The notes beneath the pieces were generated by a model, which searched no databases, was not told where the DNA came from, and saw only the letters and a list, made by a program, of their open reading frames with translations. The position numbers and the translations under genes are program-made. From positions 35,533,501-35,597,500 of the forward strand of contig NC_091966.1 in NCBI RefSeq assembly GCF_036711975.1: a stretch of DNA of 64,000 nt, written 5' to 3'. The number at the start of each line of letters is the position of its first letter. Position 1 is the first letter of the stretch. Source of the DNA: Onthophagus taurus (taxonomy: Eukaryota; Arthropoda; Insecta; Coleoptera; Scarabaeidae). Below are positions 14,401 to 59,200 of this stretch, one piece after another.

Positions 14401-17400
14401 CGTTTGCTTCAAAAAGTTCCACCACCACTTTCTAAAAGTTTCTAGAATCTCTACTTTGATCAATATAATCGTGAAATGTTTTATGCTAATGTGTTATTAT
14501 GAAAGAGATAACTAAGGCAAAATTTTAAATATGCTAACTCATTTCGAAACTATTATTAGATTTTAAAATAAATACATCTGTTAATTACGATTTTTACAGA
14601 TACATAATTACGTTATTAGTGATACACTACGTTATAATTGGAAAATAATTGCTTTGATAAACACAGATGATGATGTCTGTTGCTGTCGTCAATAATACGG
14701 ATAAATTATTTTTCAACCAATTCTACTCCGATGTTTATCGTTAAAATTAGCGAAAAAATTAAACGTCGCAGCACGACAATAATTATTATACGCGGTTTGG
14801 TTGTTTTCGAAAGAAAAACACATGGTTTTAAACCATCCTGTCACGCTAAGGAACGTATTTACACAAGATTTAGATTAAACGTGGACTTAGATACGGGTGG
14901 GCAGCTGTTCCTCTATTGTACAACTTAAAAAGAAATATATAAAAATAAAAAAAAACTTGAGTAGCATCGGATGTTTTCATTCCGATTTTAAGTGGTCTCA
15001 TTTAAATCGAAATTTATACGATTTTAGCTCTTTCAACGATGGGCAACATTTGCGTAATCTTCGTTTATAAGTGAAGTAATCCGTCGATGCCATAAATACC
15101 GATAAAACACGCAGATACCGTGCTAACGAGATATATTCTAACGGGTCGTTCGTTGTTTGTGAGTTCCCGTTATCAAAGTGAAAATATATACGTTATTATC
15201 GTCCGGGATTTGTATAAGATTACCGATATTTAGCCGATTGTCTATTTAACCATGTCTCTTTCTTTTTCTCTTCTAGTTCTCTTTTCTTTTACAACATTAC
15301 AAAAAGGTTTTGCAAATAATGTCTTTTGATACTTTACGCGTAAATGCACTTACTCAAAAACAACGTTTAAAAAACCATGCGGAAGTTTTCTTTTTGTTAA
15401 AACTTGGACTGCACATGTTCTATTTAACGCACTCAATCGACTTTGATGCGTGTGAGGGTGTAAGTGCAACGTATTACAAGGACACTGTGTGTGTGTGGGT
15501 TCAATGACTGTCTGACTCTCTGTTTCTGGGTAATCTATCATCGTTACACACTCTGTCCAGCTTTTAAAATGTTATAGTAGTGTAAACGTTTAAGTAAATA
15601 ATATATTTTTGGGTTATCAAAAAGAAAAATTATATAGTAAAATCTCGATATAACTAGGGTAAATAATACAAATTTATAATTTGCACTTTAACTGTTTGAA
15701 TGAATAATTTTAATAAACACAAATTCGGTCTACCTGTGTTTATATTAAGGTTGGTAGAATCTAAGAGGACTGCTACATCCTGGGAAGAGGTGCAAAGCTC
15801 GAAGGACCGTTCATGACGTCAGCGCTCAATAACAATAACTATCACTAATACTAGACCTAGAACTAGAAACATTCGGGTTTAGCCGTACGTCTCTTAAGAC
15901 GGCTAAATCCGAATGATTCTAGTTCTAAGTCTAGTTAATGCTAGTGTTAGTTCTCGTTTTAGCTGTTATTTAGAGTTAGATTGTTGCTTCTTGTTTATAA
16001 AACTATCACTAAACATAGAACGAGAATCATTCGGGTTTAGCCGTACGTCTCTTAAGACGGGTAAATCCGAATGGTTATAGTTCTAGATCTAGTGTTACTT
16101 CTAATGCTAGTGTTAGTTCTAGTTTTAGCTGTTATTCGGCGTTAAATTGTTGCATATTGTTCATAAAACTAAAACTAGAACTAACACTAGACCTAGAACT
16201 AGAAACATTCGGGTTTAGCCGTGCGTCTGAAGACGCAGTTAGTTCTAGTTTTACACTAACACTGTTACTATATAGAACAAACACTATACCTAGAATTAGA
16301 ATCATTCGGGTTTAGCCGTCTTTAGAGACATGCGGCTAAACCCAAATGATTCTAGTTCTAGGTATAGTGTTAGTTCTAGTTTTGCACTTGCACTGTAACT
16401 AGAACTAACACTATACCTAAAACTAGAATCATTTGGGTTTAACCGTACGTCTCTTAAGACTACTAAATCCGAATGGTTATAGTTCTAGATCTAGTGTTAC
16501 TTCTAATGCTAGTGTTAGTTCAAATTTTAGCGGTTATTCGGCGTTAAATTGTTGCATATTGTTCATAAAACTAAAACTAGAACTAACACTACACCTAGAA
16601 CTAGATACATTCGGGTTTAGCCGTGCGTCTGAAGCCGCAGTTAGTTCTAGTTTTACACTAACACTGTTACTATGTAGAACTAACACTATACCTAGAACTA
16701 GAATCATTTGGGTTTAGCCGCCCGTCTCGAAAGACGGCTAAACCGGAATGATTCTAGTTCTAGGTATAGTGTTAGTTCTAGTTTTGCACTTGCACTGTAA
16801 CTAGAACTAACATATTTGAACATATTTGAACTAACACTAGACCTAGAACTAGAATCATTCGGGTTTAGCCGTCTTTAGAGACGTGCGGCTAAACCCAAAT
16901 GATTCTAGTTCTAGGTCTAGTGTTAGTTCTAGTTTTAATTGTTATTCAAAGTTAGATTGTTGTATATTTTTATTAAACTAAAAGTGGTACTAACACTAGA
17001 TCTAGAACTAGAAACATACAGGTTTAGCCGTCTTAAGAGACGCAAGGCTAAATTCAAATGTTTCTAGTGCTAGATCTAATGTTAGTTCTACTTTTCGTGC
17101 AATACACCGTTATATTGAGGTTTTGCTATAGTTATAAATAAATAAAAATTGAAATAAAAGCAATATTTAAAGTATTCAGTGATACAGCTTATTACAACTT
17201 ATATTTGTCTTATTATAACATGTATATTTATATAATTTAAAAATGAGTGTACATTGGTTTAAGTTGTTTAATTTCCTTGTAGTAACGAATGTAATCAACG
17301 CCAAATAAACATCAAAACTTTCCGACGGTTCGAAAGTAACTTTTAATGAGAAAAGTTTTCTGCTTTGCCTCCCACCAAAGTTGTTTCTCTACGTTATATC

Positions 17401-23400: not shown

Positions 23401-26400
23401 CAAAATTTAGGTTTTGATGAAGTTTTATATGTTATGTTTGGTATAATGAACTTTTTTTTACTTACAGCTAATATTTCTGTTATAATTAATTAAGTCCATG
23501 AATTTTTTTGAATTAACATTAATTTTTCAGATCAAAATTAAGATTTTAATGCTGTTTTAAAGACTTCATGTAGGTTCATTTATTTCATTCTAAAGTTTCG
23601 ATTATAATTTGAAGTTTTGATAAAGTTTCTTGGATATGGCTTCATTTCGATGAAGTTTTTGGATAAATATTGTCCAATGTAACAAAATTGTGGTAACTGC
23701 ATTTAGTTTTATTGCAATTCCTTAGGTTGATACCAAACATTCGGTTACATTTGACGTTTTGATGAAGTTCCTTTATCTCTATTAGGTTTCATTGAAGTTT
23801 TTGAGTTAATATTAAATATTTTGATCGGTACTAAGTCATTTCGATAGGTTTTTTCAGTGAAGTTTTTTGAGTTAATTGTGTTATCTTTAGTCAATAATAC
23901 ATTTTTGAGTAAACTTTAAAGTTTGGATTAAGTCAAATTTTGTCCATATTGCCGTCATGATGAACAACCTTAACTCCATGTCTGACCTGATCTTCTCCTG
24001 TTCTTCCTCTTCATCTCGTAAATTATCATCATCTTCCTAGACATCAAAACAAATCCGATTGAATGCGGATTATGTCGAGAATTAACTTCAACAAACGTCT
24101 TCAAAACTTAGTCGAGCTAGCATATCCCTTCAAAATGAGTAGATATATCAACTTTCCATCGTGAGTGCAGAATTCTGGAAGATCCTGATCTTAACAGAAA
24201 GTTTAATGAACTAAATCATAATGCCCAAAATATGTTATGGCCAAAATATCAAAAATTGTCAAAAAACGCCCAAGCCACGATCAATGCAGAAAATATTTTT
24301 TTACTGAAAATTTTTCGTTCTACTAACTTAACAAAACTATATTAGATGATGAGTTTGTAGCTGCTTTGTCGACCTCAAATTATACACAATACTCGTTTGC
24401 TATCCTAAAAGTAAATCCTAAAAATTGGTTATTTGATTGTAGCTTCTCGGCCCTAATAAATAACTATTATGTTAAAAAATATTTATTACCTGTTATCATA
24501 TATTAATTTAGGTATGATAAGGAACTTTTTTCAATTCAATTTTTTGCCATAAAAAGCATGTCAATAGATATTCGTAATTAATTTCACATATATCCATCAT
24601 AATAAAGTTGATGAACCCAACAATAAAATGCCACCAATCACATAGAGTGTAAAAGAATCTTGTTGTTGTTACAACAAAATATGCTTATTTATTTTTTACG
24701 TATTATTTCCATGTATTAGTTCAACAAGCTTGTTTATCCAAAGAAATTCGATAAGTCTATTTTTTGCTCTTTTCCGCCATTTAAAGTTTACAGTATCCAG
24801 TTGCAGAAAACCGAGTAAATATCACCAAAGTGCACATGTGCACACTAAAGCCACGGGGTATTGTGTTACAACAAATCGTAACATCTCGCGAACTTTGAAA
24901 TGTTTCTATGTAAAACAAAATAACACTCAAAACATTAAAGGTATTAAATTTCCCATAAATCATCACAATTTAAGAATGTGACCACTTAAACCTTAAAACA
25001 TGTTTGGTTCGATATATATACTTTTTTTGTCTAAAATAAATATATCAGATTATCAGTTCCTGATTGAAACTTTATCAAAGTTTCCACGTGAAAAATAAAA
25101 ACTTAATCGAGGTCACCTTTATTAGAAAAAAGATGACACTTTTATCTACACACATACATTTATTTTTATATATATATATATATATTTCTGCCAACACGTG
25201 TACGAATAAAATAAAAACATTTTTTTAAAGAGAAAAAAATCTGGGTCATTCACCAAAACTTTATTTTTCTTTTTAAATATATTTTCGAAGAGAGGCCCTC
25301 GAAGGTCACGCAGTCGTTGGAGCGAAAATAAATCAACGAATAATAAATGCAACTCGAACTGAATCATCATTGTTCGTTTGTGTGTTTCAAACCGGGGGCC
25401 CCGCATTCAAAACACTTTTATCACCATTGCAAATGGCAATTGTTTATTAACTGATAATTATTTATGAAGGACGTCGTCGTGTGAGTAAACAGTTTTATAA
25501 CAATCGAGAACGATTAACTAATCTAGCTTTAATACGCATTTTTTTTAATTATTTCAATTTTTCTTAAAAACGTTTTTTCTTTGTTTCAGACGCATACTCT
25601 CTTTGTGGATGCGTTTCTTCAAAATAATCGCCTCGACCACGTTAGCCAGGTAATGGGGTTCCATCCTGCGTATTTGGACCACTTCCTTAAGACTCAAAAC
25701 TTCATTTTGAGAGGTGATGGACCACTTCCTTATGCCTATAGACATTATATTGCCATTATGGTAAGTACAAATAAAAAGTGATGAAAGAGTTAGAATAAAA
25801 GATTGGGAGGAAAGTTATTACGATATTCTTCTTTTAATACGATAAACAAAATCTTGCTGCTTCCATTTAACACGGCCATCGTTTACAAAACATACCGTAA
25901 TGATTACAACTAGGCGCCTTTTTATAAACATTTGTGCGTTATATCTTTCTCTATTGGACATAAACAGGAAATTCCATGGGTTGTAATGATTATACGAAAA
26001 TATCTAATGAAATCTTTTTTTAATTTTATTTTGAATTTTTTTTAGGCTGCTGGTCGCCATCAGTGTAGCTATTTAATATCCCTTCAAAAACAAGAATTTC
26101 TTCTCCAAGGGGGTAACCCGGATTGGTTGAAAGGGCTGGAACACATTCCGGCCAAGCTACGCAATCTGTATGATATCGCAAAGATCTTAGCTCATCGGCC
26201 GTGGCTTCTCAACAAATCACACATCGCCAAATTGACCAAATGTAATGATAGTTGGTCTTTGGCCGAAGTCGTCCACGCAATCGTCATCTTAGCACACTTC
26301 CATTCGCTTTGTTCTTTCGTCTTTTCATGCGGCGTCAACCAAGAGGTCGATCAAGCTGGTGGATATCGATATGAAACACAAGATGAAGTTCATAGAGCCG

Positions 26401-29400
26401 CTTTAGCTATTCATCATCGTCATAGTAAAACTGATCCAAAAGATATTCCTGTTAATGATACTAGACAAGGTATTATTGCACATTTATTTTTTTTATTACC
26501 GTTTTATTTAAAAATTACGAACTCAAAATCTAGCTCACACCAGATAAAACATAAAAAAATAATTTCATGCGTATCTTTTTAATGTCTACGCGCCATAAAA
26601 GATTAATTTTATTGAAAAGCAAATATTAATTCTAAAATTAATTTTTTTAATTTGTCTTTGTAGAATGGAAAAACAGTAATTGTACAAGATCTAGTCCGCC
26701 ATCGCCAACCGAACCAGAAGTGGGTATCTCAACGTTAATGCAACGTATGAAAACTTTAAGCGAACAGACTCAAGAGTGTACACCCGTTGAATTAACGAAA
26801 CGTTTTGAGAATGTTGAAAGTCAATCGGCGGAGCTAAACGCCGTAGGTCAAGAGCCACAAGAAACGCCGGCCGATATCGGAATCTTCGTCGACGATCCCT
26901 TGTTCCTTTACCAAGACTTTGCAAAACGTAGCGATCAGGAAATCTCGACGTTCCGCGTTCAGGACTACTCGTGGGACGATCACGGTTACTCGCTAGTGAA
27001 CCGTCTTTACAACGATGTCGGTAACTTGCTCGATGAAAAGTTCAAGACCGCTTACAATCTAACGTATTACACGATGGGAGGACGAACGGACGTGGACACT
27101 TCGCGTTTCCGTCGTGCTATTTGGAATTATATACAGTGTTTGCTTGGTATTAGACACGATGATTATGATTATGGTGAAATCAATCAATTGCTTGAACGGA
27201 CTCTTAAAACGTTCATCAAGAGCGCATGTTGTTATCCGGAAAGAGTTACTAAGAAGGATTATGATAGAGTTCTCAGGGAATTTAAACACAGTGAAAAAGT
27301 AAGTAAAACAAAATTATAAGTCCAAAATTATTATCATTTTTAATTTAAACATAATAAGATCAAAGAGGCCAAACATTTTAAGGCTGCGAAATTCTTATGC
27401 TGATATGTTTACATGCTGATGAAATCTATGGATGATGTATCCCTATAACCAATAATAATCTAGTTTATTATTCCGATCAAAACAAACGTCCTTAAATTAG
27501 GTCAACAGATGATATGTAGATTAGCGTCAAGTTAATTTATTGGAGCAATAACATGATTTGTAAATTTAGTTTAGCTTTTTGCCAATAAACCTTAGTTGTA
27601 ATGGATAAAATAAATGAATGGATTTGAGTATCCTTAATTGTGTAAGTTGTGAACTAAATTGGAACCAACATTCGATTTGGAAAAAACAATTTTTGACAAT
27701 ATTTTTGTTAATTTTCGTCAAAATTCTTTTTGAATTCGCAACGAAGTGTTAATTCCGATTTTAATTCCAATTTCATCTTTGATTTTGATTCCGATTTAGT
27801 TACAAAATACTTCGAATCATTTCGGGCCATATTTCCGCAATTCTTTTATAGCTATGTTATAAAAATTATGTTGACTAAATGTTCTTAATGGGCAACATTA
27901 AGATTAATCAATCAGGGAACATTCTTTGCAACAAGTTGTCTAACTTATATTGAATTCCTTAATTTTGTGATGTAAATGTTACAGTGTAGGTATGTACCTG
28001 AGAGTGTCAGTAATAATAAGACGAACCTCTTCTGCACTTTCAATGGTAGTTATTAGATACTGAAAAGATCTTTGGTGGGCGTTACAAAGATTTTCAATAA
28101 ATCAGTAACGAAAATCTGCTTTACAAGTACACACTGACTTTTTACACTTTATCTATTTTGACAAACTTCATTTTTGAACAATCATAATCGTGTCAGGATG
28201 TAATTTAAGGTCAATCAGCTTCACCATTCGAATCCTTTCCATATTTGAAGTTCAGAGTCATGTTTCCAAACAGAATGTGCTGCTTTATTAATGCTTTGAC
28301 TGCAACGATGTTTGTGAGTGCGTTTGAAACAAATTTCTACCACAAAGCCTCGTTGTTCACATGATCATAACATATTGACAAATAGTATACCTATATAATT
28401 AGAAGAGTCGACTATCTTTAAAACCTAACTAAAGAAAAGCTCATGAACCATACGTATTAAGCGGAAATAGATAGCTTTTGAGTTGTTACTTCCACATTCG
28501 ACGCTAACGTATAATCAGAAAATATGTTACACATTAGCTTTGAAGCTGTTTTTATTATCATTGATGTGGTAAATATGGATAGGAACTAGTCATAATTACA
28601 AATCTAATAAGGTCCGTCTCAAACACAAGATCTATCTCTGAATAAATACGTACGAAAGATGTTGAAGAATAATGCATGGAGATATTTAAGACGATGTTGA
28701 TAAATATTGGAGAAAGCATAGACGAAGGAGCGCTGAACAGTGTTGAGAGATTCAAAGATATCTGGGACAATATTACATTAAATTAATAGATATTAGAGGT
28801 GAAAATGAGAGATATTGAGGAAGATGTTGAGAAATATGTTAAGGAGGGAGGAGGAGTATTATTGAGAGATGTTAAGGATTATATTGAGATCACAAAAATG
28901 ATTTTGAGATTTATTTGGCGATATTTGAGAATACTAGCCGGTAGCTGTTATTATCATTATCATATTTTCTTGTATATTGTTTAATTCCTAACTTTATCGT
29001 CGCAAAAAGCTTAAATAAGTTAAGAAGACGTTACTTCATCACGAAAAAATAACGTTTACAATCAAAATCTCCCGAGAATCTTCAAGAAGGTCAATCTCTT
29101 CAAAAACTCCTCGAAATATCCTCTAAAAAATATCGGAATAAAAATCAGAATTTCAGTGAAAATTTTAAAGATTTCGAAGGATATCTAAAAGTTTCTAACA
29201 CTTTTTAAGAGTTTTTTCAAAATATCAGAACAACTTGTAGGGAATTTGTAAGGATTTCGTAAATTTATTAAAGAACTTTGAGAAAGTATCTAATATTTTT
29301 AAGAAAACTTCAAGAATTTCGAAAAATTTTCAATGTTATGCCGGATTTCTAAAAAACTTGACGATGTTAAGTATCATGTATAATATTAAAAAATGTTAGA

Positions 29401-32400
29401 GTTAATGATTAATGAATTATTAACTCTAACATTTTCTGATTAATTATACCATAGATGTTTAAAAAGATTAATTCGCTTGAACCTGTATATTATTGTATTT
29501 TTTATAATCAAACTAACAATTTTATGAGAAAATGTTAAGAGACAAATTAGTTGCGTCTAGATTTATCTCTCTTAAATCAAGTTTTTAAATAGCAACGTAG
29601 ACGCATTAAAAAGTTCTGATGTAAAGTATTATAGAGGTTGATTTTTTAGCCAACATTTTCCGGTTATAAAAATCGTCAAAAAGTTATCTCCATAATTTTG
29701 CCTAAAAAAATGTTTCGCATCAATTTAAAAACACCCTGTATATTAAGAAGGAATTCTTAAGTATAACACTTAAGTTATAGTTGTTAAAACATTTATTTTT
29801 CACTTGAAATCAAATATTACTGAAGAAATGCGTAATTGAAATAACAACACCATTATTTACAAGAGACAGATGAAGAGAACAATAGAAATCGAAAAATTAG
29901 GAGCAGGTGTACTAGTTGTTGTAAAAGAATGATGAAAGGAAATAAACAAGCTGCGGACAAACCTAAAAATGTTACGACATTTTGTGGAGTGTGCCAAGGA
30001 AACTCATTTATTTATGCATTTATCTACGCAAATTGGACTGCGTTGTAAATTTCTTTTCTATCTTCAGGGTGTGATTATCTCACTTCCTTCGAGAATGTTT
30101 GAAAACATTCATCATATAATTTTCTACGTCATTTTTCTTTTGTATATTGCAGAACAACTTATAGAAAAAGTGTATCGGTGTTTCTACACAACTTTCTGCA
30201 AGCAAAATGTAACCCCAAATGGGTTTACTAGTGAAATCCTGTTTAGAATTTCTCCCTTGCAAATTTGTTTTACTTCTTTTCATTTGTTCTGAAATAGGAT
30301 GCGAAATTTGCATAGAGCTAGAAATTTGCACATTTGACATCTACTGCAGATGTGGTGAGAACACGAAGAATTTTAATTCAGAAAACTGGCGAGCTGAAGA
30401 TGGTCTTTATCACTAAATTATTGAGAAAATTAAGTAATAAAGTAATAAGTAATAATTTAATATAAAAAGTAGAGAACAAATTCTCAACCAAAAAAACTTG
30501 CTTTCTAACGTATTAGGTCGAGGCAGTACAATTAATACCATATCAACACAAGGTTGGTGTCAACCAACGTATCGCCTCGGCCGCAAACGACCTCAGCTTA
30601 ATATACGATGTCATTGTAGTAATCCAAGGTCGTTTGCGGCCGAAGCAGTACAGTTAATACCATATCAACACAAGGTTGGCATCAACCAACGTACCGCCTC
30701 GGTCGCAAACGACCTCGGCTTAATATACGATGTCACTATTTTAAGCCGAGATCGCTTGCGGCCGAGGCAATAGTGTTAATACTATATCAACACAAGATTG
30801 GTGTCAACCACCGTATCGTCTCGGCCGCAAACGACCTCTGCTTAATACACGATGTCGCTGTATTAAGCCGAGGTAGTACAGTTAATACCATATCAACACA
30901 AGGTTGGTGTTAACCAACGTACCACCTCGGCCGCAAGCGACCTCGGCTTAATGTGCAATATAACTGTATTAAGCCGAGGTCGCTTGCGGCCGAGGCAGTA
31001 CAGTTGATACCATATCAAGACAAGTTTGTTATCAATCAACGTACCGCCTCGCCCGCAAACGACCTCGGCTTAATACACGATGTCACTGTATTAAGCCGAG
31101 GTCGCTTGCGGCCGAGGCAGTAGTGTTAATACCATATCAACACAAAGTTGGTGTCAACCAACGTACCGCCTCGGCTTACTATACGATGTCACTGTATTAA
31201 GCCGAGGTCGTTTGCGGCCGAGGCAGTACAGTTAATACCATATCAACACAAGAATGGTATCAAGCAACGCAAGGTCTATAGAACATAAGGTTACCTAATT
31301 CCCTATGCCTCTGTAGTATCGATTATTACCCCGCAGATTGACATCACTGGTTCGATACAGTCAGAGTAAAAGATAGCCTATACGTGCCTATACTGTGGTA
31401 CAGTCTATATAAAATATTTAAACCTCGCATCATGTTGTGTTGTTCATAGAGCCAGCTACGTCACTGACCCACCTTGCCCGTCAGAGGAGGAGAATTGGCA
31501 TTGGGCAACCTTATGTTCTATAGACCTTGCAAGCAACGTACCAGTTTTGTCAGCACACAATCGTCGTTGCTTACACGTCTTCACTTACAGCATACGGCAA
31601 AATAATATTGACACCGAGCAAACTCATCTAGTACAATTGTTAGAATATGGTGTGTTAATTAATTATCGTACCCAACGTCATCATTGCAAGTATGCAACCA
31701 ATATTACATTACTGGTATTGCAATACGCGATTTGCGTATTCAGATATATTCAGTGTGATATTGGTTGCATACTTGCAATGATGACGTCGATTACGATAAT
31801 TAATTAACACTCTGTATGTGTATTGCAATATACGGCGAGGTGGAACTGCCTCAAACGTCGTATAACAATGACGAACAAAATCGTTCATCCAGATATACAC
31901 GGCACAATAGAGGATTAAAGACAAAACACTCGGTGCGGAAGCTATATCGAGGTAGCGTCTCAGCCGCAAGCGACCTCGGCTTTATTTTCTCAGTTATTAA
32001 CATAATATACAGGTGCCCATTATGTATGGAATATAGTATATATCTTGGTAGGTATCTTATATAAAAAAACATTTTATATAAAAGTTGTTTAATATTTTAT
32101 TTGCCATAATAAGAGACAGCATTCAATTGTTTTTATTTCAGAAAACAAATGAGCAACGAATAACACTTGAAGTTTTTTAAATAGCAGTGTACCCTTTCGT
32201 TAGGCTCATTTGATAGAGATTTTTTTTCTCTTTACGATAACGTAAAATTTTAGTACCCTTAATCAGAAAATTTTTGAGAATATGTATAAATTACTTTTTG
32301 TACTTTTCAAATATAAAAAAGGATTTTAAAAACCCTTTGGTCGATCTTGGCAAGACATTTATATAAAAAGTCGATCTTCATCAAAAATTAGTGGACACCA

Positions 32401-36650: not shown

Positions 36651-36846
36651 TAGATGAGCTGAGTCTATATGTATATGGCAAAACTACTGGCACTATTTTA
36701 ATATAAATTTGCGCACATGATTTATCCGAGGAGATTCAGCTAAAATATTTTCAGTTTTCTGCAACTTCCGGATATACCGGAAATGGACCATTACTTCATT
36801 ATTTTAAATGGAATCCCAGTTAAGTTATTGAAAAAATAAAAGAAAA

Positions 36847-36964
36847 GGCAACGGCACGCGGTGTTCCCAAGCGGTCACCCATCCAAGTACTAACCGCGCC
36901 CGACAGTGGTTAACTTCGGTGATCAGACGAGAACCGGTACATTCACTGTAGTATGGCCGTTGCC
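36847..36964 (-). rRNA. 5S rRNA gene, copy 1
   Basis: 118 nt matching the insect 5S rRNA layout. Its ends pair as helix I (GGCAACGGC with GCCGTTGCC). The internal control region is present: box A-like GAAGTTAACCACTGTCGGG, and box C TGGATGGGTGACCGC then TTGGGAACACCG. A T-rich terminator follows. It faces copy 2, and the two with their upstream spacers form a large inverted repeat. Expressed or not cannot be told. Confidence 0.8.
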
Positions 36965-37621: not shown

Positions 37622-38202
37622 GGCAACGGCCATACTACAGTGAATGTACCGGTTCTCGTCTCTTAAAATCACAATCACACCCCATAGTAACGCACACACA
37701 CACACCCACACTAATCAACACATCACCAACACAAACAGCCTCACCGCTGTTATAACACGCTAGGATTTTTTACCCTCCCAAGCGCTCTCCCGACACTCGT
37801 CCGCCCTCAATTAGGAGATTCAACCGCAACCGATTAACTAACTTCCCCCCCAATCGTCTCAGCTATATTGTCACGCGGCTCCCTTGCAACCCCTTGTAAT
37901 TTGTACATATATTTATCTTTTGTATATAGATCGTTGCAACACCCGTATTCACTATCCCGGTTTAACAAGCGCCGCCGCTTCGAAAAAACCGCCGTCGATT
38001 CCGTAGTTTTAAGATGTATTATGATATCTTAGGTTAATTTTAAGTTAATTTTAAGAAGTATTGTAATATTATCTGTATCAACTATTTTAATGAATAAATG
38101 TATATTTGAATTTGGTTCTCGTCTGATCACCGAAGTTAACCACTGTCGGGCGCGTTTAGTACTTGGATGGGTGACTGCTTGGGAACACCGCGTGCCGTTG
38201 CC
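37622..38202 (+). pseudogene. 5S rRNA gene, copy 2, split by a retroelement
   Basis: The first 40 nt of the 5S gene (37622-37661) and the rest from 38114 are separated by a 452 bp insertion. The 11 bp GGTTCTCGTCT is present on both sides (37651-37661 and 38114-38124), a perfect target-site duplication. The downstream part carries the control boxes, with two base changes (CGCGTTTAG, GTGACTGC), and ends in a T-run. The split makes a normal 5S transcript from nucleotide 1 impossible. Confidence 0.9.
37662..38113 (+). mobile_element. 5'-truncated retroelement 3' end inserted in a 5S gene
   Basis: 452 bp lying in the same orientation as the 5S gene. It begins with a CACACACA-rich stretch, has AACACGCTAGGATTTTTTAC and TAGGAGATTCAACCG, and ends ATGAATAAATGTATATTTGAATTT just before the duplicated target. 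A poly-A-signal-like AATAAA sits near its 3' end. It has no long open frame, so it looks like the 3'UTR of a non-LTR retrotransposon or a SINE using one. The same sequence is found at the same 5S nucleotide in copy 3. Confidence 0.75.
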
Positions 38203-38319
38203 TTTTTTTTATTTTCCAAAAATTCATTAAATAAATTCCCTCCTATCTAGGCCCGCAAACTACATCACACCATTTTCCACGCCCAGCTATTGTTATGGTC
38301 TATGGGTCTATGCGTTTTC

Positions 38320-38420
38320 TGTGTATTTTTAGAGGTTACATCCTAGACGTATTCATATTATTTTTGAAGTTTTATGTTTTTAGTCGTATTAATGTCTATC
38401 ATATAACCTCTAAAAACACA
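38320..38420. repeat. Short inverted repeat
   Basis: TGTGTATTTTTAGAGGTTA (about 38319-38337) and TAACCTCTAAAAACACAGA (about 38404-38422) are near-perfect complements separated by about 65 bp. This is possibly a small TIR element in the 5S spacer. Confidence 0.5.
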
Positions 38421-38515
38421 GACAGTTACCAGCCGTGGCAAATAGTGTGAAGTAGAGTGCGGGCAACCAACCCGTAGTGGACTAATACAAAAATACAATG
38501 GATATAGTCTTGTTA

Positions 38516-38966
38516 GGGTGCGTTTACGTTGGAGTTGCGATAAACGATACTAGTAAAATAACGAAATTGTTGTCATAGTTTTATATGCAGGTGTTTATAT
38601 TGGAACAAGAGCTGCGATAAACGATAAAAGCAGTAATGAGAGCAGCGATAAGAGCTGCGCAAAATTCGTTTCTATGATATGCTGTTTATAGTGGAGCGTC
38701 GATCTGTTGTGGTGATTTTTATCTTTTTGGTTCCACAAGGGGGATCTAACAAAAATTTCACTAATTAAACAGTCGATATCCATGCCGACCACACCTGATA
38801 ATAGCAAAGAAAATAGGGAATACAATTAGCGTCGCTCTTATCGTTAGTCTGCTGTCAAGCGTGTGACAATGCGTCGCTCCAATATAAACACTTGCATATA
38901 AAACTATGACAACAATTTCGTTATTTTGCTAGCATCCTTTATCGCAGCTCCAACGTAAACGCACCC
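38516..38966. mobile_element. Harbinger-type MITE, 451 bp
   Basis: Terminal inverted repeats of about 90 bp begin GGGTGCGTTTACGTTGGAGT, and the 3-bp duplication TTA flanks it (38513-38515 and 38967-38969). TWA duplications and GGG-type ends are characteristic of PIF/Harbinger. The inside has several AGCTGCGATAA phrases and no transposase frame. It is inserted in the 5S spacer. Confidence 0.8.
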
Positions 38967-39564
38967 TTAGATTCTACTGTCCTTGGTGGTACATACCTGT
39001 TCTTTATTGTGTAGGTGAACCCTTGTTTGGACAGCTTAGCTGCCTCCGCGTCTAAATAATTCTTGTGTATTATAAAATATTTCACTGTCTGTTATGGTTA
39101 TTTATTTTAGAGTATAGCTGCCGTGCATTACTAAATAATGGGTATACATGGAAAAAAGTTGTACATTTTGTTCCTTACTGTGTACTTCAACTCATGCCTC
39201 GGTAGCACAACTGTCTCGGCGTCTACATAACGCATGTATCTTGTAAAAGATTTCACTGTCAATTTGAATGCTAAAATGTGAATTCTAAAATATTCCTGCG
39301 GAATGGCATCTATATTCTCTCCCTTCAGATTACTTCTCTCTCTATCGTCCGTTTGCGAAACTAAACGCTCATTTACTTGAGTTTGCATCCTAGTTAGTGG
39401 AATAAACGGATATCTTTGTCATGACTCCGTCATCATCATAATATATTATTATATTGAAACACGGCGTATGTAATGCAGTGTATTTTCACAAACATACTTC
39501 ATCCTGTAAATCTAAACTGGCACTATTAATGTCAAACGTAAGCTGGCATGATGTATTATATGCA

Positions 39565-39721
39565 GGCAACGGCCATACTACAGTGAATGTACCGGTTCTC
39601 GTCTAACACGCTAGGATTTTTTACCCTCCCAAGCGCTCTCCCGACACTCGTCCGCCCTCAATTAGGAGATTCAACCGTAACCGATCAATTAACTCCCCCC
39701 CCCGCAAAACGTGCCGTTGCC
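39565..39721 (+). pseudogene. 5S rRNA gene, copy 3, middle replaced by a retroelement
   Basis: The first 40 nt of the 5S gene (to GGTTCTCGTCT at 39604) run straight into the same retroelement as in copy 2. The gene's last 11 nt (GTGCCGTTGCC, 39711-39721) and T-run follow. The 3' part of the insert and most of the 5S gene, including the control boxes, are missing, presumably through a later deletion. It is not functional. Confidence 0.85.
39605..39710 (+). mobile_element. Second retroelement copy at the same 5S nucleotide
   Basis: It starts at AACACGCTAGG, an internal point of the insert in copy 2, directly after GGTTCTCGTCT. It stays nearly identical to that insert for about 95 bp, up to the C-run, then is cut short. 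A different 5' truncation at the same target nucleotide is what independent target-primed reverse-transcription events would leave. Confidence 0.75.
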
Positions 39722-40584
39722 TTTTTTTTTTGTTTTTTCAATAATTTAATAAATAAGATTATTTTCCCAAATATTATGCCATTATCCGCCGACTTAATAA
39801 TACATGTGTGTTACTACGTGCTTCTATTGTTGAGTACACAAACCGTTATGTATGTATATTTAAAAAGGTTTTGCTGTCTGTTCTTTTTCTAAGTACTTGA
39901 ACCACTGCCTCAGCAACTCAATCACAGAGTCGATTTCAAAGTTTTAGTGCCTCTGTCTATACTCGTGTGTGCTCCACAATTTCGGCTGCAGAACAACTTC
40001 AACCTCTAAACAACATACTTTTACAAAACTGTCTCTGCAGCTTAGCTGCTTCGGCTTTTAAATAATGGATACATATTGAGAAAAGAATTTACTTCCTGTT
40101 TCTTACTGTGTACTTCAACTCATGTCTCGGCAGTACAGTTAGCTTGGCATCCAAATAATCCATTTATATTGTAAAAGATTTCACTGTCAACTTGAAAAAC
40201 TAAAGTTCAAGAAACCTTCAGATTACTTCTCCTATCTTCTAACACTCTGTTTGCGGAACTGAACGCTCATTCGCTTGAGGCGCTGGAAGCAGGAATACAT
40301 AAGATTTCCGTCCTGGTTGGTGGAATAACGGAAAACTTTATCATGACTTCGCCACCATCGTAATATATTATACAGGTCATCCACGACGACCATCCATTAT
40401 AACTATATAGAGAACTAAATGAAGTAGGGGTTTGAAAATTATGATGTTTGATGCGAGCTTTTTAACTGAAATATTTTCAGATTCCGGGTACATGTGGTTA
40501 CACCGGAAGTGGTGTACATCATCCTGTAAATCTGAAGTGGCATTATTAAGGTCAAATGTAAGCTGGCATGATGTGTTATACGCA

Positions 40585-40702
40585 GGCAACAGCCATACCA
40601 CAGTGAATGTACCGGTTCTCGTCTGATCACCGAAGTTAATCACTGTCGGGCGCGGTTAGTACTTGGATGGGTGACCGCTTAGGAACACCGCGTGCCGTTG
40701 CC
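40585..40702 (+). rRNA. 5S rRNA gene, copy 4
   Basis: A 118-nt copy with intact control boxes and a T-run after it. It differs from the consensus copy at 43491 by GGCAACAGCC (a helix I mismatch), TTAATCACTG and CTTAGGAAC. The upstream spacer shares CTGTAAATCTGAAGTGGCAT, then AAGCTGGCATGATG, with the other + copies. Confidence 0.8.
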
Positions 40703-40740
40703 TTTTTTATTTTTCCAAAAATTTATTAAACATATTAGTT

Positions 40741-41856: not shown

Positions 41857-41974
41857 GGCAACGGCCATACCACAGTGAATGTACCGGTTCTCGTCTGATC
41901 ACCGAAGTTAACCACTGTCGGGCGCGGTTAGTACTTGGATGGGTGACCGCTTGGGAACACCGCGTGCCGTTACC
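41857..41974 (+). rRNA. 5S rRNA gene, copy 5
   Basis: A 118-nt copy with intact control boxes. The 3' end reads GTTACC instead of GTTGCC, which breaks one helix I pair, and the terminator is CTTCTTTTTTT rather than a plain T-run. It may be less competent than copies 8 and 9. Confidence 0.75.
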
Positions 41975-42076
41975 TTCTTTTTTTGATTTCCCAATAATTG
42001 AAACGCTGGAAGCAGGAATACATACGATTTTTCGTCCTAGTTGGTGGAATATATTATTAAAAAAACAAAAAAAAAA

Positions 42077-42194
42077 GGCAACGCCACGCGGTGTTCCCAA
42101 GCGGTCACCCATCCAAGTACTAACCGCGCCTGACAGTGGTTAACTTCGGTGATCGGACGAGAACCGGTACATTCACTGTAGTATGGCCGTTGCC
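42077..42194 (-). rRNA. 5S rRNA gene, copy 6
   Basis: A 118-nt copy on the minus strand. It reads CTCGTCCGATC, the base found in most animal 5S genes, where the other copies have CTCGTCTGATC. It also has GTCAGGCGCGG and GTGGCGTTGCC, the latter a helix I mismatch. With the truncated copy 7 it forms a divergent pair that repeats the copy 1/copy 2 arrangement. Confidence 0.75.
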
Positions 42195-42654: not shown

Positions 42655-42684
42655 GGCAACGGCCATACTATAGTGAATGTACCG
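42655..42684 (+). pseudogene. 5S rRNA fragment, copy 7
   Basis: Only the first 30 nt (to GTACCG) remain. They are followed by ACAGTGG, which matches the complement of an internal 5S segment, then about 255 bp of unrelated sequence. This looks like a recombination or repair junction between inverted 5S copies. Confidence 0.75.
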
Positions 42685-42946
42685 ACAGTGGTACATTAAG
42701 TTCCTATGCTGCAATACTTTGATTTTAGTTTGTGGGCGAGGGGCAAGAGCAGGAGTGTTTCGTGACGTAAGTGATCACGGATTGCGCACGCAACCTCATG
42801 GCCATGTGGTGCTCCATGCATTTGTTTGATTTGAATTGTTTGGCGGTATTATTTTCCACATGTGACGTAATGCGAAGTATGGTTGCGTACGAACCTAGAC
42901 AACCTTTTATATATAAACATTCAGCTAGCATGATGTATTGTACGCA

Positions 42947-43064
42947 GGCAACGGCCATACCACAGTGAACGTACCGGTTCTCGTCTGATCACCGAAGTTA
43001 ACCACTGTCGGGCGCGGTTAGTACTTGGATGGGTGACCGCTTGGGAACACCGCGTGCCGTTGCC
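42947..43064 (+). rRNA. 5S rRNA gene, copy 8
   Basis: A 118-nt copy with perfect helix I pairing, intact control boxes and a clean run of T after it. It differs from copy 9 only by GAACGT for GAATGT. The spacer immediately upstream is shortened compared with other copies, with only about 30 bp recognisable. Confidence 0.85.
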
Positions 43065-43490
43065 TTTTTTTTTGAAGATTTTACTTCCTGTTGCTTACTG
43101 TGTACTTCAACGGTTGTCTCGGCAGTACAATTACATTGGCGTCTAAATAATGCGTGTATATTGCAAAAGATTTCACTGTCAACTTGAAAACTGAAATGTA
43201 AATTTTACTTTCAACCTGTTAAATTTGCAATTCACTAAAATTCAAGTAACCTTCAGGTTACTTCTCCTATGTTCTAACACTCTGAACACATAAGATTTTT
43301 CGTCCTAGTTGGTGGAATAAACTGATATCTTTGTCATGACTCCGCCATCATCATAATATATTATTATGTTGCAACACGACGTATGTAATGCAGTGTATTT
43401 TCACGACAAACATTTAAACATACTTCATCCTGTAAATCTGAAGTGGTACTATTAAGGTCAAACGTAAGCTGACATGATGTATTATACGCA

Positions 43491-43608
43491 GGCAACGGCC
43501 ATACCACAGTGAATGTACCGGTTCTCGTCTGATCACCGAAGTTAACCACTGTCGGGCGCGGTTAGTACTTGGATGGGTGACCGCTTGGGAACACCGCGTG
43601 CCGTTGCC
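43491..43608 (+). rRNA. 5S rRNA gene, copy 9 (consensus copy)
   Basis: 118 nt matching the consensus of the cluster at every position where copies differ. Helix I pairs over nine bases. Helix II has the paired change CACAGTG with CACTGT where most insects have ACGCTG-type with CAGCGT, so pairing is kept. A run of nine T follows. This is the best candidate for an active gene, subject to having a working upstream promoter. Confidence 0.85.
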
Positions 43609-45058
43609 TTTTTTTTTGTTTTTTAATAAATAAGAAGAATATGTTTTACACTTTCAATCAAAATCATTTTTTTTTTAACCTATTAACAGACTATTAATCT
43701 AATGCAGGCTCATGTCCACAAGAGGCATGTTCATATCGTTGATAAAACCACTCCACTTATTAGCTTTCAACTACACCTTTCTACACATATTTGAGCTATG
43801 TGTATCCCCTTATATATAAAATAATTCATCTGGCACCATTCAAAGCCTTGGTTATGCAACACTGCTTAAATGAGACAACATCCACAGAGAAAGTTCTTTT
43901 ACTAATAAAAACTATTATATTATAATATTCCTGGAATCAGTGCAAGACATCTTACTCTGTAGCAATAAAACCATCGCTCTTTCTTGTTATTTGACGAACT
44001 TCTAGAACTTCAACAAATCAATAGATTTAATATTATAGCAATAATTGCTATGAGAATGATTAATGTCATAGCAAAGAAGATGCACAAACGATTCCTTTCA
44101 CATTGTATAATCACGCTCAAAATTCACAATAATGGTGGGTAAATCAACACTAATTCCAATTACACTATTCTAGTATTCATTTCATCATATTTTGATGTGC
44201 GGGTTCCTATTATAGCATTCTTAGATGAGATTGTGGTTCTGCTTAGAACGTTGGGAACTATCAAAGTCGATTACACTCAAAAATTGGAATAAGTTTCGGT
44301 GCCAGTGTGATGACAAGAAAGTAAAGTAGCGTCACACCTTTTTCTCTGGCATTGTTTGTGTCATCACCTAGAACATTCAGTAAAAGATGTCTTAAAATGA
44401 TTGTATTTGTATTTCCCGTTTCTAAAGTTTCATCAAACGCTTCGATTGTTATCATTAAAGCTCAAAGAACTCGAGGGATTTGAAAATAGCTTGCACGTTG
44501 AAATAATAATTGATAAAGTATCTGTTAGTGTGATTAAAAATAACTGTTTTTTCTCTTTCCTTCTACTTTCCTACTTACTAAAAGTAAATAACTGAACGTC
44601 CGCTGGTCTTTCTTCACGTTATCACTTAAAACTTTAAAATTGAGACATCAGAGTTAACTAAATATATTATTGTTCATAACAATATAAACAAACATATTAT
44701 GAAAACACTAAATGAATAGTTCTTGCTAAATAACATACCTGTTATTGTCTTCGTTTTTTAAGAATCTACCGTCAAACATTTAAAACACAACATGAATAAT
44801 ACATCATGTCCACTCAGTGTAGCCGCATAATGTATTGGCGTTCTTTTCACCCGGTTTGCCCTCTGCGCGTTGTGAGGCGGGCACCGCGCTTTATCGCATT
44901 TTCGCACCGATAAATATAAAACCACGGATGAATTATAGAAAAAAGGAAAAATGTAAAAAATATAGCAACATTTCCATAATTTTCAAACATTTTTCTTTTT
45001 TATTTCAATTCTTTTCAATACATTCAGTCTTTTTTAAATATTACTTTCCTTACACAAA
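43609..45058. other. Intergenic stretch between the 5S cluster and the zinc-finger gene
   Basis: It holds the right flanking copy (about 43845-44110) of the sequence at 36340-36650 and otherwise unrecognised AT-rich DNA. A short GC-rich patch near 44845-44905 has no RNA-gene fold that I can see. The 3'UTR of the minus-strand zinc-finger gene must lie in its right end. Confidence 0.5.
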
Positions 45059-48000: not shown

Positions 48001-50008
48001 GTTACCTTTTCGTGAATCTCTTTTTAAGCGATCTTTAATATTTTTCTATCAAAAATAATTGTATTAAAATAACAAAAAAGTTAAATTATAATGTTATTAC
48101 CTTAATAGTTTCGGTTGTATCTCCGTGTACTTCTTTTGAATGATTTTCTAAAGCTTCCTTATTAGAAAGAACAGCGCTGCAAACAATGCATTTTAAAAAA
48201 TGTTGTTCATAATGAGCTGTAAAATCGTCTTTTGTAAAATTTTTTTTACAAATATTACATATTTCAATTGTATCAACCACCGTTTTTTCATCGTCAATTG
48301 TGACGTCGTCCATGTATTCTTCGCAATCAACCCCAATAAATACATGATGTTGACCTTCGTCGATTAATAACCTACATTCGCTGTTACTATCTTCATGTTT
48401 AATGTATTCATTTGAATCGTTCATTGTTGGTGAATCAATTTCGTATTGTTTTTGAGTTAAAATACTTTCAGGTTTTTGTAAATTCGATTGTACATCGAGT
48501 ACTGTGTGTATATCGGTACTAAAATGAGTATCTTTTTCTTGTACAACTGCGTTACTTAACGTAATATCATTTAATGATGCATAAGCAGCTTGGGATGTGT
48601 ATAATTGATTATGTTGATGAATCAACTCTTCGCTATACCTAGAATTGTTAACGATCATTGTTTCTTGTACCTGTAAATTATGACCGTTCACCGTTTGACT
48701 TAATTCGTGATGATTGATTTCGATTGAGGATAAAGCATGACTGTTTATATCGATTATTTGGTGTTCAACAATTAAAGCGTCGCGGTGTTCGAGTTGATTC
48801 AATTCGAGTTCGCTAACTTCATGCATATTTTCGTTTAATAAATGGTGTTGTTGAACCATCATTAATTCTTCCGTTACCGCATTTAATTGTTTGTAAAGGT
48901 CAATTAATAAAGATTCGGTGCGTAACGATCGTTCTCGAAAATCAAAAAATAAATCTAATTTATAAGCGCATTGGTCGCATATCATTTTTGGAAGTTGGTC
49001 AGCTTCGTGTATCTGAAATTTGAAAAAATTTAACTTAGCGCCATCTATTGACCATAGAAAATAGCTTAGTAGAAATGTAAAAAAATTTCGTATAAAAATT
49101 GAACGCATGTGGCGCCATCTGTTGGGGATATTTTGAAATTATTCAGCTAAGAACCGAACCACTAGAATACAGGTTGGATTGGATATATATATAAAAGCTC
49201 CAATCACACAATAACTGCTTGGAGCCACTCAAATTAACGTTTAGACTGGTTGGGAATTCCTCAGATGCAATTACGCCTGTCAAATAATGCCGCCACGTTT
49301 GAATTTCCCTGCATCATAATATATGACATGTGAGATTGCATCTGATGAGCTTCCAGCCAGTTACATATAACGTTAGCTGAAACAAAGCTATAATGACAAT
49401 TATAATCTAATTATTTAATCAAACCATTATTACTTTATTATACTCTTACCGAAAAATCACTTTAAAGTGACGTTTACATTTGTCATTCTGAACAAACTTC
49501 AACTTTTAAAATTCTTAGCGGCAAATTTAAAAATATGTATAACACAAATTGGGATTTATACGTTTTAAATTAAAAAAAATGATACTTGTAATAATTGTTA
49601 TTACTGTCTCTCATCATTCCCACTATTAATAACAAAATTGTTAGTTTAATTAAATTATTTCAGTATAGACGCTAATGCCCTCTCGTGGTGGGATTGCGAC
49701 ATATAATCATCCAAGTTCTAAGATATCTGGGACTGTCTATTGACTGAAATTTAGTGCCCTCTATGAGTGGATATCCAAAGTTTTTGGGTAAAATTCATCA
49801 TGGCTACCGTCGATAATCCAAATTATATGATTGAAAAAAGGGGAAAATTTCTTGTTATTTTACTTACATGAACGGGTAAACATTCGCCGATTTTCTTATC
49901 TAATTGTCGGGAGGTGCCGTCGTTGGTGAAAATGTTCACCGCTAATATTTCATTGATTTTCTCACCGCACAACCTACACAACTCGTTGTACCTTGTCGTG
50001 TCCGCCAT
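45059..50008 (-). CDS. ZAD and twelve-finger C2H2 DNA-binding protein
   Basis: Six coding exons on the minus strand: 50008-49868, 49012-48101, 48045-47751, 47697-47479, 45595-45289 and 45230-45059. All have GT-AG junctions and join in frame to 681 residues. The N-terminal ZAD dimerisation domain has its four zinc ligands at Cys11, Cys14, Cys59 and Cys62. A long acidic, His/Gln-rich linker follows, with two weaker fingers at its end. Then come ten regular C2H2 fingers, mostly joined by TGEKP-type linkers. The 1.9 kb intron at 45596-47478 cuts a finger between CDICGRGFITKG and LLRAHQKTH, and the joined finger has perfect CX2CX12HX3H spacing. ZAD proteins are insect nuclear transcription or chromatin factors. 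I cannot name the orthologue. It is head-to-head with IFT88. Confidence 0.92.
45890..46140 (+). mobile_element. LINE C-terminal scrap in the zinc-finger gene intron
   Basis: One frame reads LLGFLAGHAPLTYHLFHLGQ, then AENQTYRFCND. This is the end of RNase H and the start of the Cys-rich tail in I/R1/Jockey-type LINEs (FLTGH..LNYHL...G....CRFC). It lies antisense to the host gene and is broken by stops, with no visible ends. Confidence 0.6.
46225..46790 (+). mobile_element. hAT transposase scrap
   Basis: Frames read FTFDIWTNSYVTSYISFTIH, then ESHTSENI, then GKIVGHFSHSPSSCSKIK and LIQDIPTRLNSSFYML. These are the hAT catalytic-core landmarks: DIWT, HTxENI, and the VGHF.HS...L...Q and DV.TRWNS.F.M pattern of ZBED4/6-like transposases. 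Here TRWNS has become TRLNS. There is at least one internal stop. It is antisense to the host gene. Confidence 0.7.
46830..47450 (+). mobile_element. LINE ORF2 C-terminal scrap, purine-rich
   Basis: Frames read MMYEAEVWGWKRQDILEDVQ, then YRRWVLGW, then GYIVREEVKVDEMRVEAGRE. This is the C-terminal region of an insect LINE family (YGAE.WGW..E..E..Q..Y.RW.LG....TPGYIV.EE). A frameshift lies between the pieces. The GA-rich strand gives long proline/serine frames on the other strand that are not genes. Confidence 0.65.
49038..49770. promoter_or_regulatory. Four CTCF-like motifs in and beside the first intron
   Basis: GCGCCATCT at 49038-49046 and 49112-49120 are both exact complements of AGATGGCGC, which fits the fly CTCF core AGRKGGCGC as I remember it. 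The second continues GTTGG as in the long CTCF motif. TGCCCTCTCGTGG at 49676 and TGCCCTCTATGAGTGG at 49755 are weaker versions in the same orientation. All lie within 1 kb of the shared promoter. Binding is inferred from sequence only. Confidence 0.4.
49235..49375. mobile_element. Short imperfect-hairpin MITE in intron 1 of the zinc-finger gene
   Basis: The arms TAACGTTTAGACTGGTTGGG then CCTCAGATGCAAT (left) and the complement of ATTGCATCTGATGAGCTTCC then AGCCAGTTACATATAACGTTA (right) pair over about 40 bp with mismatches. No target duplication is clear and it is non-coding. Confidence 0.5.
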
Positions 50009-50451: not shown

Positions 50452-53400
50452 ATGAGCAAAATTCCTTTAAATTTCACGGAAGAAGACGAAGATCTTAAAG
50501 CACTCTTTAGTAAACCAGCCCCTGTATATGAAGATGACGCCATACCAAGGAGTGCTTTGGCAAGTCGGAGACTTAATTCTTCAATGCGATTGGGACTCTC
50601 AACTGGGGTACTTTTACCTTAATTAAAGCGTTTGCAATCAATATATGTGTTTATAAACTTTTAGTATCAACGTCAAGGTACCGCAATTTTACCAGTTAAA
50701 CCTGGAACAGCCGGGTTTAGGCCCATGACATCCGATAATGTTAATAGACCAATGACTGCTGTGCGAGGTGCTGGATACACATCACAAAAACCTATATTTG
50801 ATCCACTAAATCAAGAGGCGTTAATAACTTCACCTACGGAATTACAAAAAGATGATAGCCCAGAAGGAAAAGTGCGCATTCAAGAAGAAAAAATAATGCA
50901 ACTTGTTGAAGAATCCTGCGTTGCTAGCGGCGAAGGAAATTTTCAATTAGGATTATCGAAAGCTAAGGAAGCTTCTAATAAAGAAAGAAATTTGATTAGA
51001 ATACAAGAACAAGCCGGATTAAGTGATCATCACAATATGGATCTCACATACTCAGTTTTATTCACTTTAGCAAATCAATACACAAATAATGAATTATATA
51101 GTGAAGCTTTAAGCACTTATCAAATGATCACAAAGAATAGAATGTTTACAAATGCTTATCGATTAAAAGTTAATATGGGTAACATTTATCATAAACAAGG
51201 ACAACATCACAAAGCTATTAAAATGTATCGAATGGCGTTAGATCAAGTTCCATCAACCCAAAAAAAATTAAGGTAGTGTTTCAAATTTTAATTACACTTA
51301 ATGATTAATTTTGTTTTAGAATAAAAATTATGCATAATATAAGCATGGTTTTCGTTGAAATGAATCAATTTGAAGAAGCTGTAACTGGTTTGGAGTACAT
51401 TATGAATGAAGAACCCAATCATAAAGCTGGATTACATCTTGTTTTATGTTGTCGAGCGTTGGAGGATAAAGAAAGGATGAAAATGGCTTTTTCTCTTTTA
51501 TTAGCGATACCATTAGATGTTGAAGATGAAGAAAAATATAACTTAGAGCAGGTTAATAAAATAAAAATGAATTACAAACCTCGATATAATGGATTAATAT
51601 GGGAAGGGAGTGTCCATTATATGAAAAATTTTTAATTTGCACTTTAAACTGTTTGAATGAATAAGTTTAATTGCACACAAATTCGAACTGCTATCCACAC
51701 CGTTGTGTTCTGTATTAGTTAATTCTACTTTTAGTTCAATAAGAATATACAACAATCTAGCGCTGAAGAACAACTAAAATTAGAGCTAACACTAGCACTA
51801 GAAACATTCGAGTTTAGCTGTATGTCTCTTAAGAGGGCTTCAAAAGAAAACTGACCTATCATAACATTGCTTCATGGTACAATTAGAGGTTCAAAAGAAA
51901 ACTGGCCTATCCTAACATTCCTTCATGGTATAATTTTGGTTTCAAAAGAAATCTGACCCATCTTAGGATTATAGTTGACATTACAAAAGAATACTAACCC
52001 TACCCAACGTTCTTTCTTGGGTTGATTGACATTTGTAAACAAAACTGCTAACATTCTTGCTTAACATTCTTTACTTCAATTAATTTCTTATTAATTTTTG
52101 GTAATTGATATAATGCAAACTAATTAACCAATATTTGTTTTTGAGATATCTTTTCCAAGAGTTGTATAGATATAGTTTTGAGAAAATTGCGTTTAAAGCT
52201 TCGAATTGTAAAAATTGAAAAGTGGAGAGCAAATTTTCTTTTCAACATGTCCAATACAGTTGTATTCTATCTATGAGCGCTAACATTTATATTAAAATAT
52301 ACCCGTTCTAACGAGGTCCATTATATCGTGGTTTTACTGTATTATTGTAATCTACATTATTTATTAATTTATTACAGGATAATGCTGAAGATGTAATGAT
52401 AGCATCAGCAATACAAAATGATCCTCTACACATTTATGAAAAAGATAGACGAACAGAAGCCGAAACAAGTATTTTAACAGCAGCTAAATTAATAGCTCCT
52501 TTAATAGAATCATCATTTGGTGTTGGATATGATTGGTGCGTTGAAGTAGTTAAAAATTCCGAATACGCTAAACTTGCTGGGGATTTAGAAATAAACAAAG
52601 CTGTGGTTTATTTAAAACAAGGACAATTAAACGATGCCATTGAAACATTGAAAGTTTTGGATAAAGAGCAAGCGATTGCAACAAGTGCTGCTATTAATCT
52701 TAGTTTTATTTATTATTTAGTAATAATACTTTATTGCCATTTAAAAAATAATACTTTAAATGATTTTTTTAGCAAGGTGATTATGAAAATGCTGAAAAAT
52801 ATGGTAACATTGTAAAACAAGGAGATGGTTATAACGCTGGAGGTTTTGTTAATTTAGGAGCTTGCGCTTTGACTAAAGGAAAACTTGAGGACGCTAAAAA
52901 TTATTTTTTAAATGCCTTAGAATGTGACCCTTCAAACGTAGAAGGACTTTATAACCTCGGGCTTTGTTTAAAACATCAAGGATATTACGAAGCTTCTTTA
53001 GAGTGTTTCCAAAAATTTACAGGTTCTTTATCACTTCTACCTGAAGTTGTTTATCAAATAGCATGCCTTTTTGAAAGACTTGGTGATACTGAAGCTGCTT
53101 CTGAAGCTTATCAACAATTATTAGGATTAATACCGGCTGATGCGGGCGCTATACAAAAATTAGGCGAATTATTTGATGGGGAAGGTGATAAACAACAAGC
53201 TCATCATTACCATTATGATGTAAATCAAACAAAAAATGATATAAAAAAATTAGTAAAGAAAGTATTTTTTATAGGCGTTTAGATATTATCCCGGAAATTT
53301 ATCAGTAATCGATTGGTTAGGTTCTTATTACATAGAAATGCAAGTCGTTGAAAAAGCTTTGGTTTATTTTGAAAAAGCGGCTCAAATGCAACCGGGAAAT

Positions 53401-54055
53401 CCTAAATGGCATATGATGGTTGCTGGGTGTCATCGGAGAAGTGGCAATCTCCATAAAGCTTTAATACTTTATCAGGAAATTCATAAAATGTTCCCTGAAA
53501 ATTCAGAGTGTTTAAGGTTTTTGGTTAGGCTTTGTAGTGATTTGGGGATGAGAGAAGCTCAAGATTATGCGCTTGAATTAAAGAAGTTAGAGAAAGTTAA
53601 AGAAGTTAGAGAAAGAGTTTCTAGTAGTCGACCAGGTACTAAAGATCATCAACTCTATGACAAATTTTAACCTACAAATTTGTTCAAAACGAAACCTTAT
53701 ATATTAAATTAATTTAGGTTCTATAAGAAGCGGAAGTAGCCTATCTTCGCGTGGAGGATCAGGTTTTAGTACTGTTCATGAAAATGTTCGATTAGAATCA
53801 AGCGCTAAAAGAACAGGACGTTTAGTGCAACTTCATGATAGTGCCGGAAGTGGAGATTCTGGTTTTGGACAACCAATAATAGGTAAATTTAATCAATCAA
53901 TTTATTATTATTAAAAAATAATTAAATTTGTAGATGCTCATTATAGCGATCCATTAGGACCTTTACCACAAAGACCAAGAACTGGATTTGAAAAACCAGC
54001 CGAATATGATGATTTTGGTGATGAGCAATTAGGCGATGATTTATTACCGGAATAA
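50452..54055 (+). CDS. IFT88: Intraflagellar transport protein 88 (IFT88/Polaris; fly nompB)
   Basis: IFT-B core subunit needed to build cilia, which in insects means sensory neurons and sometimes sperm. Eight coding exons: 50452-50607, 50665-51272, 51320-51551, 52378-52719, 52773-53219, 53275-53635, 53718-53882 and 53934-54055. All junctions are GT-AG and give 810 residues, close to the 820-830 of vertebrates. The N-terminus has RPMTAVRGAGYTS. TPR repeats run through the middle, with landmarks LANQYTNNELYSEAL, AAKLIAPLIESSFGVGYDWC, DLEINKAVVYL, ALYNLGLCLK-like GLYNLGLCLKHQG and MVAGCHRRSGN. The C-terminus DDFGDEQLGDDLLPE is nearly that of mammals. The third intron (51552-52377) carries a pogo-type MITE. 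It starts 443 bp from the divergent zinc-finger gene. Confidence 0.96.
51632..52339. mobile_element. Pogo/Tigger-type MITE in an IFT88 intron
   Basis: The right end CATTATATCGTGGTTTTACTG followed by TA is the pogo/Tigger terminal repeat. The inside (TTTGCACTTTAAACTGTTTG, then CTAGAAACATTCGAGTTTAG) matches the Sestrin intron element at 15635-17128, including one copy of the hairpin core. The left terminal repeat is missing. So the family has single-hairpin members, and the nine-hairpin array is an expansion. It includes an unrelated TCAAAAGAAAACTGACCTAT-type triple repeat at 51840-51970. Confidence 0.7.

Positions 54056-54517: not shown

Positions 54518-59200
<4,683 letters not shown>

Follow-up and report, generated by a model that had tools for sequence, protein, structure and literature searches.

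The occurrence of one and the same sequence within two different 5S rRNA genes, in each case after the same nucleotide, raises the question of how an insert comes to occupy one exact base of a 5S gene more than once in a 64,000-nucleotide stretch of Onthophagus taurus DNA (hereafter the window). The inserts are probably 5'-truncated copies either of a 5S-specific non-LTR retrotransposon (LINE) or of a short element that a LINE mobilised, with an endonuclease that would cut a fixed site in the 5S gene. The evidence for a 5S-specific LINE comprises two copies, both of them incomplete and with no reverse transcriptase (RT) or endonuclease sequence linked to them.

The 5S rRNA gene cluster spans approximately 36.8-43.6 kb of the window, and Rfam and blastn searches of the window found nine 5S copies, of which six are complete, two carry the insert and one is broken otherwise. 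Rfam identified the six complete genes and, as a seventh match, a weak one (42 bits) crossing the 3' junction of copy 2, and a blastn search of the window with the 5S gene as query contributed a 30-nt stub at 42655 as well as the 5' half of copy 2 and that of copy 3. The target is uninterrupted in the complete genes detected by Rfam at 40585-40703, 41857-41975, 42947-43065 and 43491-43609 on the forward strand and at 36846-36964 on the reverse strand; the complete gene at 42076-42194 (reverse strand, Rfam) has C, not T, at nt 40. The two genes in inverted orientation, 36846-36964 and 42076-42194, agree at 239 of 249 aligned bases over 260 upstream bases and nt 1-29, which suggests a duplicated inverted unit. 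Segments common to the units of the 5S array are found in both orientations.

Copy 2 carries the longer insert. Nucleotides 1-40 of its 5S gene (37622-37661, forward strand; blastn and sequence) are followed by an insert of 452 bp (37662-38113, forward strand; sequence) and then by nt 30-120 (38114-38204, forward strand; Rfam and blastn). The segment nt 30-40, GGTTCTCGTCT, closes the 5' half and opens the 3' half, and flanks the insert on both sides as a perfect 11-bp duplication, for which the probability by chance at a set border is 4^-11, or about 2e-7. The limits of the insert are unambiguous in this copy, its first base being C where the gene has G and its last base T where the gene has C. 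The start of the insert is C/A-rich and its end AT-rich, with an AATAAA that starts 21 bases before the end and no poly(A) tail after it.

The insert at 37662-38113 appears to be a retroelement's non-coding 3' end. No long reading frame is present in the 452 bp, the longest open stretch being 64 codons, and no RT or endonuclease ORF was found in the insert, as expected for a truncated copy. Its termini form no strong inverted repeat (best terminal inverted match, 10 of 15). With regard to a Pol III head, the insert has no sense-strand A-box match, and a 5'-truncated SINE would be without its head anyway; a single B-box-like sense match, with three mismatches or fewer, lies at insert position 331, and the A-box and 5S-box-C-like matches in the insert are antisense. 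RNA folding of the last 161 nt gave z = -1.54, and no structured 3' end is claimed for the insert because 15 of 200 shuffles folded equally well. The want of a long frame, of a strong terminal inverted repeat and of a clear Pol III head, together with the composition of the two ends, is compatible with the 3' untranslated end of a LINE or, alternatively, with a short element that depends on a LINE for its mobility.

Copy 3 shows the same border with a damaged 3' side. Its nt 1-40 (39565-39604, forward strand; blastn) are joined, on the same strand as in copy 2, to insert positions 93-190 (39605-39702, forward strand; blastn and sequence comparison). The insert in this copy begins 92 bp further in than that of copy 2, at position 92 or 93, the homology at the join between gene and insert being 1 bp, with one T that fits either side. 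It stops at about position 190, after which the sequence jumps to gene nt 107-119 (39710-39722, forward strand; sequence comparison), leaving copy 3 without the 3' part of the insert, the second copy of the duplication and nt 41-106, the latter amounting to over half of its 5S gene. The duplication is visible in copy 2 only, because copy 3 is deleted on this side. The retained insert agrees with that of copy 2 at 94 of 98 bases (96%), and the four mismatches all fall at insert positions 166-183, within the last 25 bases and near the deleted end, a clustering that hints at complex repair there.

The fixed site, the same orientation, one duplication and two different 5' starts support the footprint of site-specific target-primed reverse transcription (TPRT), and TPRT at a fixed 5S site is the likely mechanism. 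The bottom strand would be nicked between 5S nt 29 and 30, and the nicked end would prime reverse transcription from the 3' end of the element RNA; the top strand would then be cut after nt 40 and incomplete cDNAs would be joined at this cut, the expected outcome being a repeat of the 11 bp at nt 30-40 and 5' ends that vary from copy to copy. We infer the cut positions from the anatomy of the duplication, and likewise infer the RT/endonuclease enzyme, the order of the cuts and a family-wide preference for 5S genes. The original prediction had described two 5S copies interrupted after nt 40 by the same sequence in the same orientation, a 452-bp insert with a perfect 11-bp duplication and an AATAAA near its 3' end in copy 2, and a different 5' start in copy 3, all of which were borne out, with the correction that copy 3 has suffered a deletion on its 3' side too. 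It had also combined site, orientation, variable 5' end and duplication into a joint signature of TPRT by a site-specific non-LTR element; the first three hold for both copies and the duplication for copy 2 only. The interpretation is supported in part, and neither an RT nor an endonuclease frame was detected for the element.

The internal promoter of 5S genes lies further downstream than nt 40. Because the insert parts nt 1-40 and the upstream region from this promoter, both interrupted copies are probably dead as genes. Exact-pattern scans gave no match in IMG/VR, either to a pattern from the 5S gene or to one from the insert, and none in GTDB genomes, either to the insert-5S junction or to the 5S gene, and carry little weight for an insect element.

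Among the alternatives, the one that survives best, though unlikely, is that copy 2 alone arose by retrotransposition and that copy 3 resulted from break repair or gene conversion, which copied part of the copy 2 insert, the rest being deleted. Such an origin fits the loss from copy 3 of the insert 3' end, the duplication and nt 41-106, the position of its four mismatches near the deleted end, and the presence of shared segments, in both orientations, among units of the array. However, the gene in copy 3 is joined to the insert exactly at the end of nt 40, across no more than 1 bp of homology, and a conversion tract carrying the border of copy 2 would also carry insert positions 1-92, so that a later deletion would have to begin precisely at this border. 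The upstream flanks of copy 3 are also unlike those of copy 2, with 73 of 90 aligned bases in agreement for the proximal flanks (81%) and 186 of 256 for the longer flank (260 upstream bases and nt 1-29). Fisher comparisons of insert identity with flank identity gave p = 0.002 (proximal) and 2e-7 (longer), values that take the sites as independent and serve as a guide only. The downstream flanks of the two copies are unlike as well (0.57), though all downstream pairs are dissimilar (0.48-0.64) and hence little informative.

The relationships of the flanks to other units of the array point the same way with respect to a simple duplication. The proximal flank nearest to that of copy 2 belongs to unit 42655 (94/99), and those nearest to that of copy 3 belong to units 43491 and 41857 (83/89 and 82/89, respectively); for the longer flank, copy 2 is nearest to 42655 (237/283), with 41857 close behind (209/254), and copy 3 is nearest to 41857 (229/248). 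Since the inserts are more alike than the flanks and the nearest units differ, copy 3 is not a tandem duplicate of copy 2. Duplication of this kind had been named with the original prediction as a finding that would speak against it, and is contradicted by flanks that are 81% identical beside inserts that are 96% identical. On these comparisons it is excluded unless gene conversion hit the insert alone, and such conversion would not bring the border back to nt 40.

It is more improbable still that an ordinary LINE or SINE without 5S specificity landed in the array, the shared site being due to coincidence or to chromatin. Two events only are seen, and the insert may represent a SINE or some non-autonomous derivative; both points accord with this explanation. 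Against it, the chance that two inserts would begin at one base, and on one strand, of a 120-bp gene is estimated at about 1 in 240, and no third copy of the insert is present within the 64-kb window, where blastn (E up to 10) found none beyond copies 2 and 3, the next best match having E = 0.082. Both insert copies in the window (2/2) sit in 5S genes, after nt 40 and on the same strand; a majority of copies outside 5S genes, the other finding named in advance as adverse, is thus not what the window holds.

A target-specific DNA transposon such as Dada-5S is very improbable. Dada families resemble the present element in having 5S rRNA genes as a target, those of fish in the account of PMC8869645, but they are DNA transposons with duplications of 6 or 7 bp according to the same source, and neither feature is matched by the 11-bp duplication and the weak terminal inverted match observed here; the internal start of the insert in copy 3 is also unlike the ends of a cut-and-paste element. 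An assembly artefact is the least credible explanation of all, for although 5S arrays are prone to mis-assembly, the duplication is perfect, its position in the gene is fixed, and both copies are surrounded by flanks that have diverged.

The broken 5S gene at 42655-42684 (forward strand; blastn), in which the joined sequence is not the insert of copies 2 and 3, was considered as a candidate third insertion. It stops at nt 29/30, the position of the proposed bottom-strand nick, and its upstream flank is the nearest to that of copy 2, yet it was rejected because the joined sequence opens with an 11-base inverted 5S match (nt 55-65), a length attained in 1 of 5000 trials when the 23-base junction was shuffled base by base. 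The junction points to a fold-back or an inversion. The approximately 230 bp beyond the inverted match in 42655-42923 have no other match in the window at E 1e-8 (for the array itself, 1e-10). At 63034-63777 there are remnants of a decayed LINE-like reverse transcriptase, distributed over two frames, one matching RVT_1 (E = 1.1e-5, below the Pfam cut-off) and the other recognised by eye. The frame with the RVT_1 match, 63469-63774, is separated from the inserts by about 25 kb and has no link to them.

Several other features were recorded in the window. Between copies 2 and 3, at 38513-38969, lies an element of about 450 bp with inverted ends of about 90 bp that are 94% alike, which starts GGGTGCGTTTACG and has TTA on both sides; it resembles a MITE, perhaps of the PIF/Harbinger type. 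A complex tandem array with periods of 106, 122, 228 and 350 is organised around GCCGAGG motifs and inverted segments at 30519-31269, and a 402-bp unit is present in two tandem copies with 92% matches at 16001-16812. Host gene exons at 26046-27319, 48086-49138, 50665-53670 and 54918-55286 correspond to sestrin (PA26), zf-AD zinc-finger, TPR (IFT88-like by eye) and Cupin_8 proteins, respectively; the zf-AD domain, carried by the protein at 48086-49138, is one that has expanded in insects, which accords with an insect host.

The preferred reading, a LINE or a LINE-mobilised element specific to 5S genes, is of a kind already known elsewhere, and the element is not assigned to a named family. Mutsu, a 5S-specific non-LTR retrotransposon of zebrafish (cited in PMC11202950 and PMC3706591), is of the same type in that it inserts in 5S rRNA genes, and differs as a fish element of about 5.5 kb with two ORFs; the likeness is one of description. 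TRE5 of Dictyostelium discoideum is likewise a non-LTR element found near 5S genes, its insertions lying 37-41 bp upstream of those 5S genes that are extrachromosomal, as described in PMC5911963. Unlike the present inserts, it settles beside Pol III genes through protein contacts, with no fixed base within the gene as its target. The R1 and R2 elements of arthropod rDNA work in a similar manner, with a fixed site in an rRNA gene, TPRT and 5'-truncated copies, but they target 28S genes.

The statement accompanying the original prediction, that there is no well-described insect example, needs qualifying. In Tribolium freemani, 5S arrays show regular interruptions by Jockey-like LINEs of about 5 kb, whose association is mainly with 5S genes, and 32 of 113 5S copies, found exclusively in arrays with the Jockey-like element, are without their first 30 bp and were termed pseudogenes by the authors (PMC11202950). 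In the open-licence literature searched, LINEs in insect 5S arrays were found only for this species (PMC11202950). The likeness to the present locus lies in an insect host, a LINE associated with 5S and a 30-bp loss which, on one reading, fits a 3' junction at nt 30 within about one base; such a junction would leave halves without 29 bp, and the gene is counted as 121 bp in T. freemani and as 119-120 here. The differences are that the T. freemani elements are about 5 kb long and regularly spaced with the TfSat satellite, the spacers consisting of TfSat monomers of 71 or 122 bp there and being mostly several hundred bp here, and the comparison is by description.

The 5S search in T. freemani kept hits covering >70% of the query (PMC11202950), and because of this cut-off a 91-nt 3' half (about 75%) would have been kept and a 40-nt 5' half lost. 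Tentatively, and with more doubt than confidence, insect LINEs may cut the 5S bottom strand at nt 29/30, at the same site in the present host and in T. freemani, and the 'pseudogenes' may be the 3' halves of insertions of which the 40-nt 5' halves were missed. The link is weakened by Tribolium castaneum, for which the same source describes about 20 5S copies without 30 bases at the end of the gene and Jockey elements that are not associated with 5S (PMC11202950), since these losses show that a 30-bp loss can arise otherwise.

The elements known to target 5S rRNA genes are few. A 5S-specific insect LINE, if true, would carry over to the 5S genes of insects the strategy by which R1 and R2 exploit rRNA genes, and its endonuclease would be one whose defined target lies within a Pol III gene. 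Such a LINE might account for the beetle 5S 'pseudogenes' that have been described as a class in print. It would also help to explain the loss of working copies from 5S arrays, in which respect two of the nine copies found here carry the insert.
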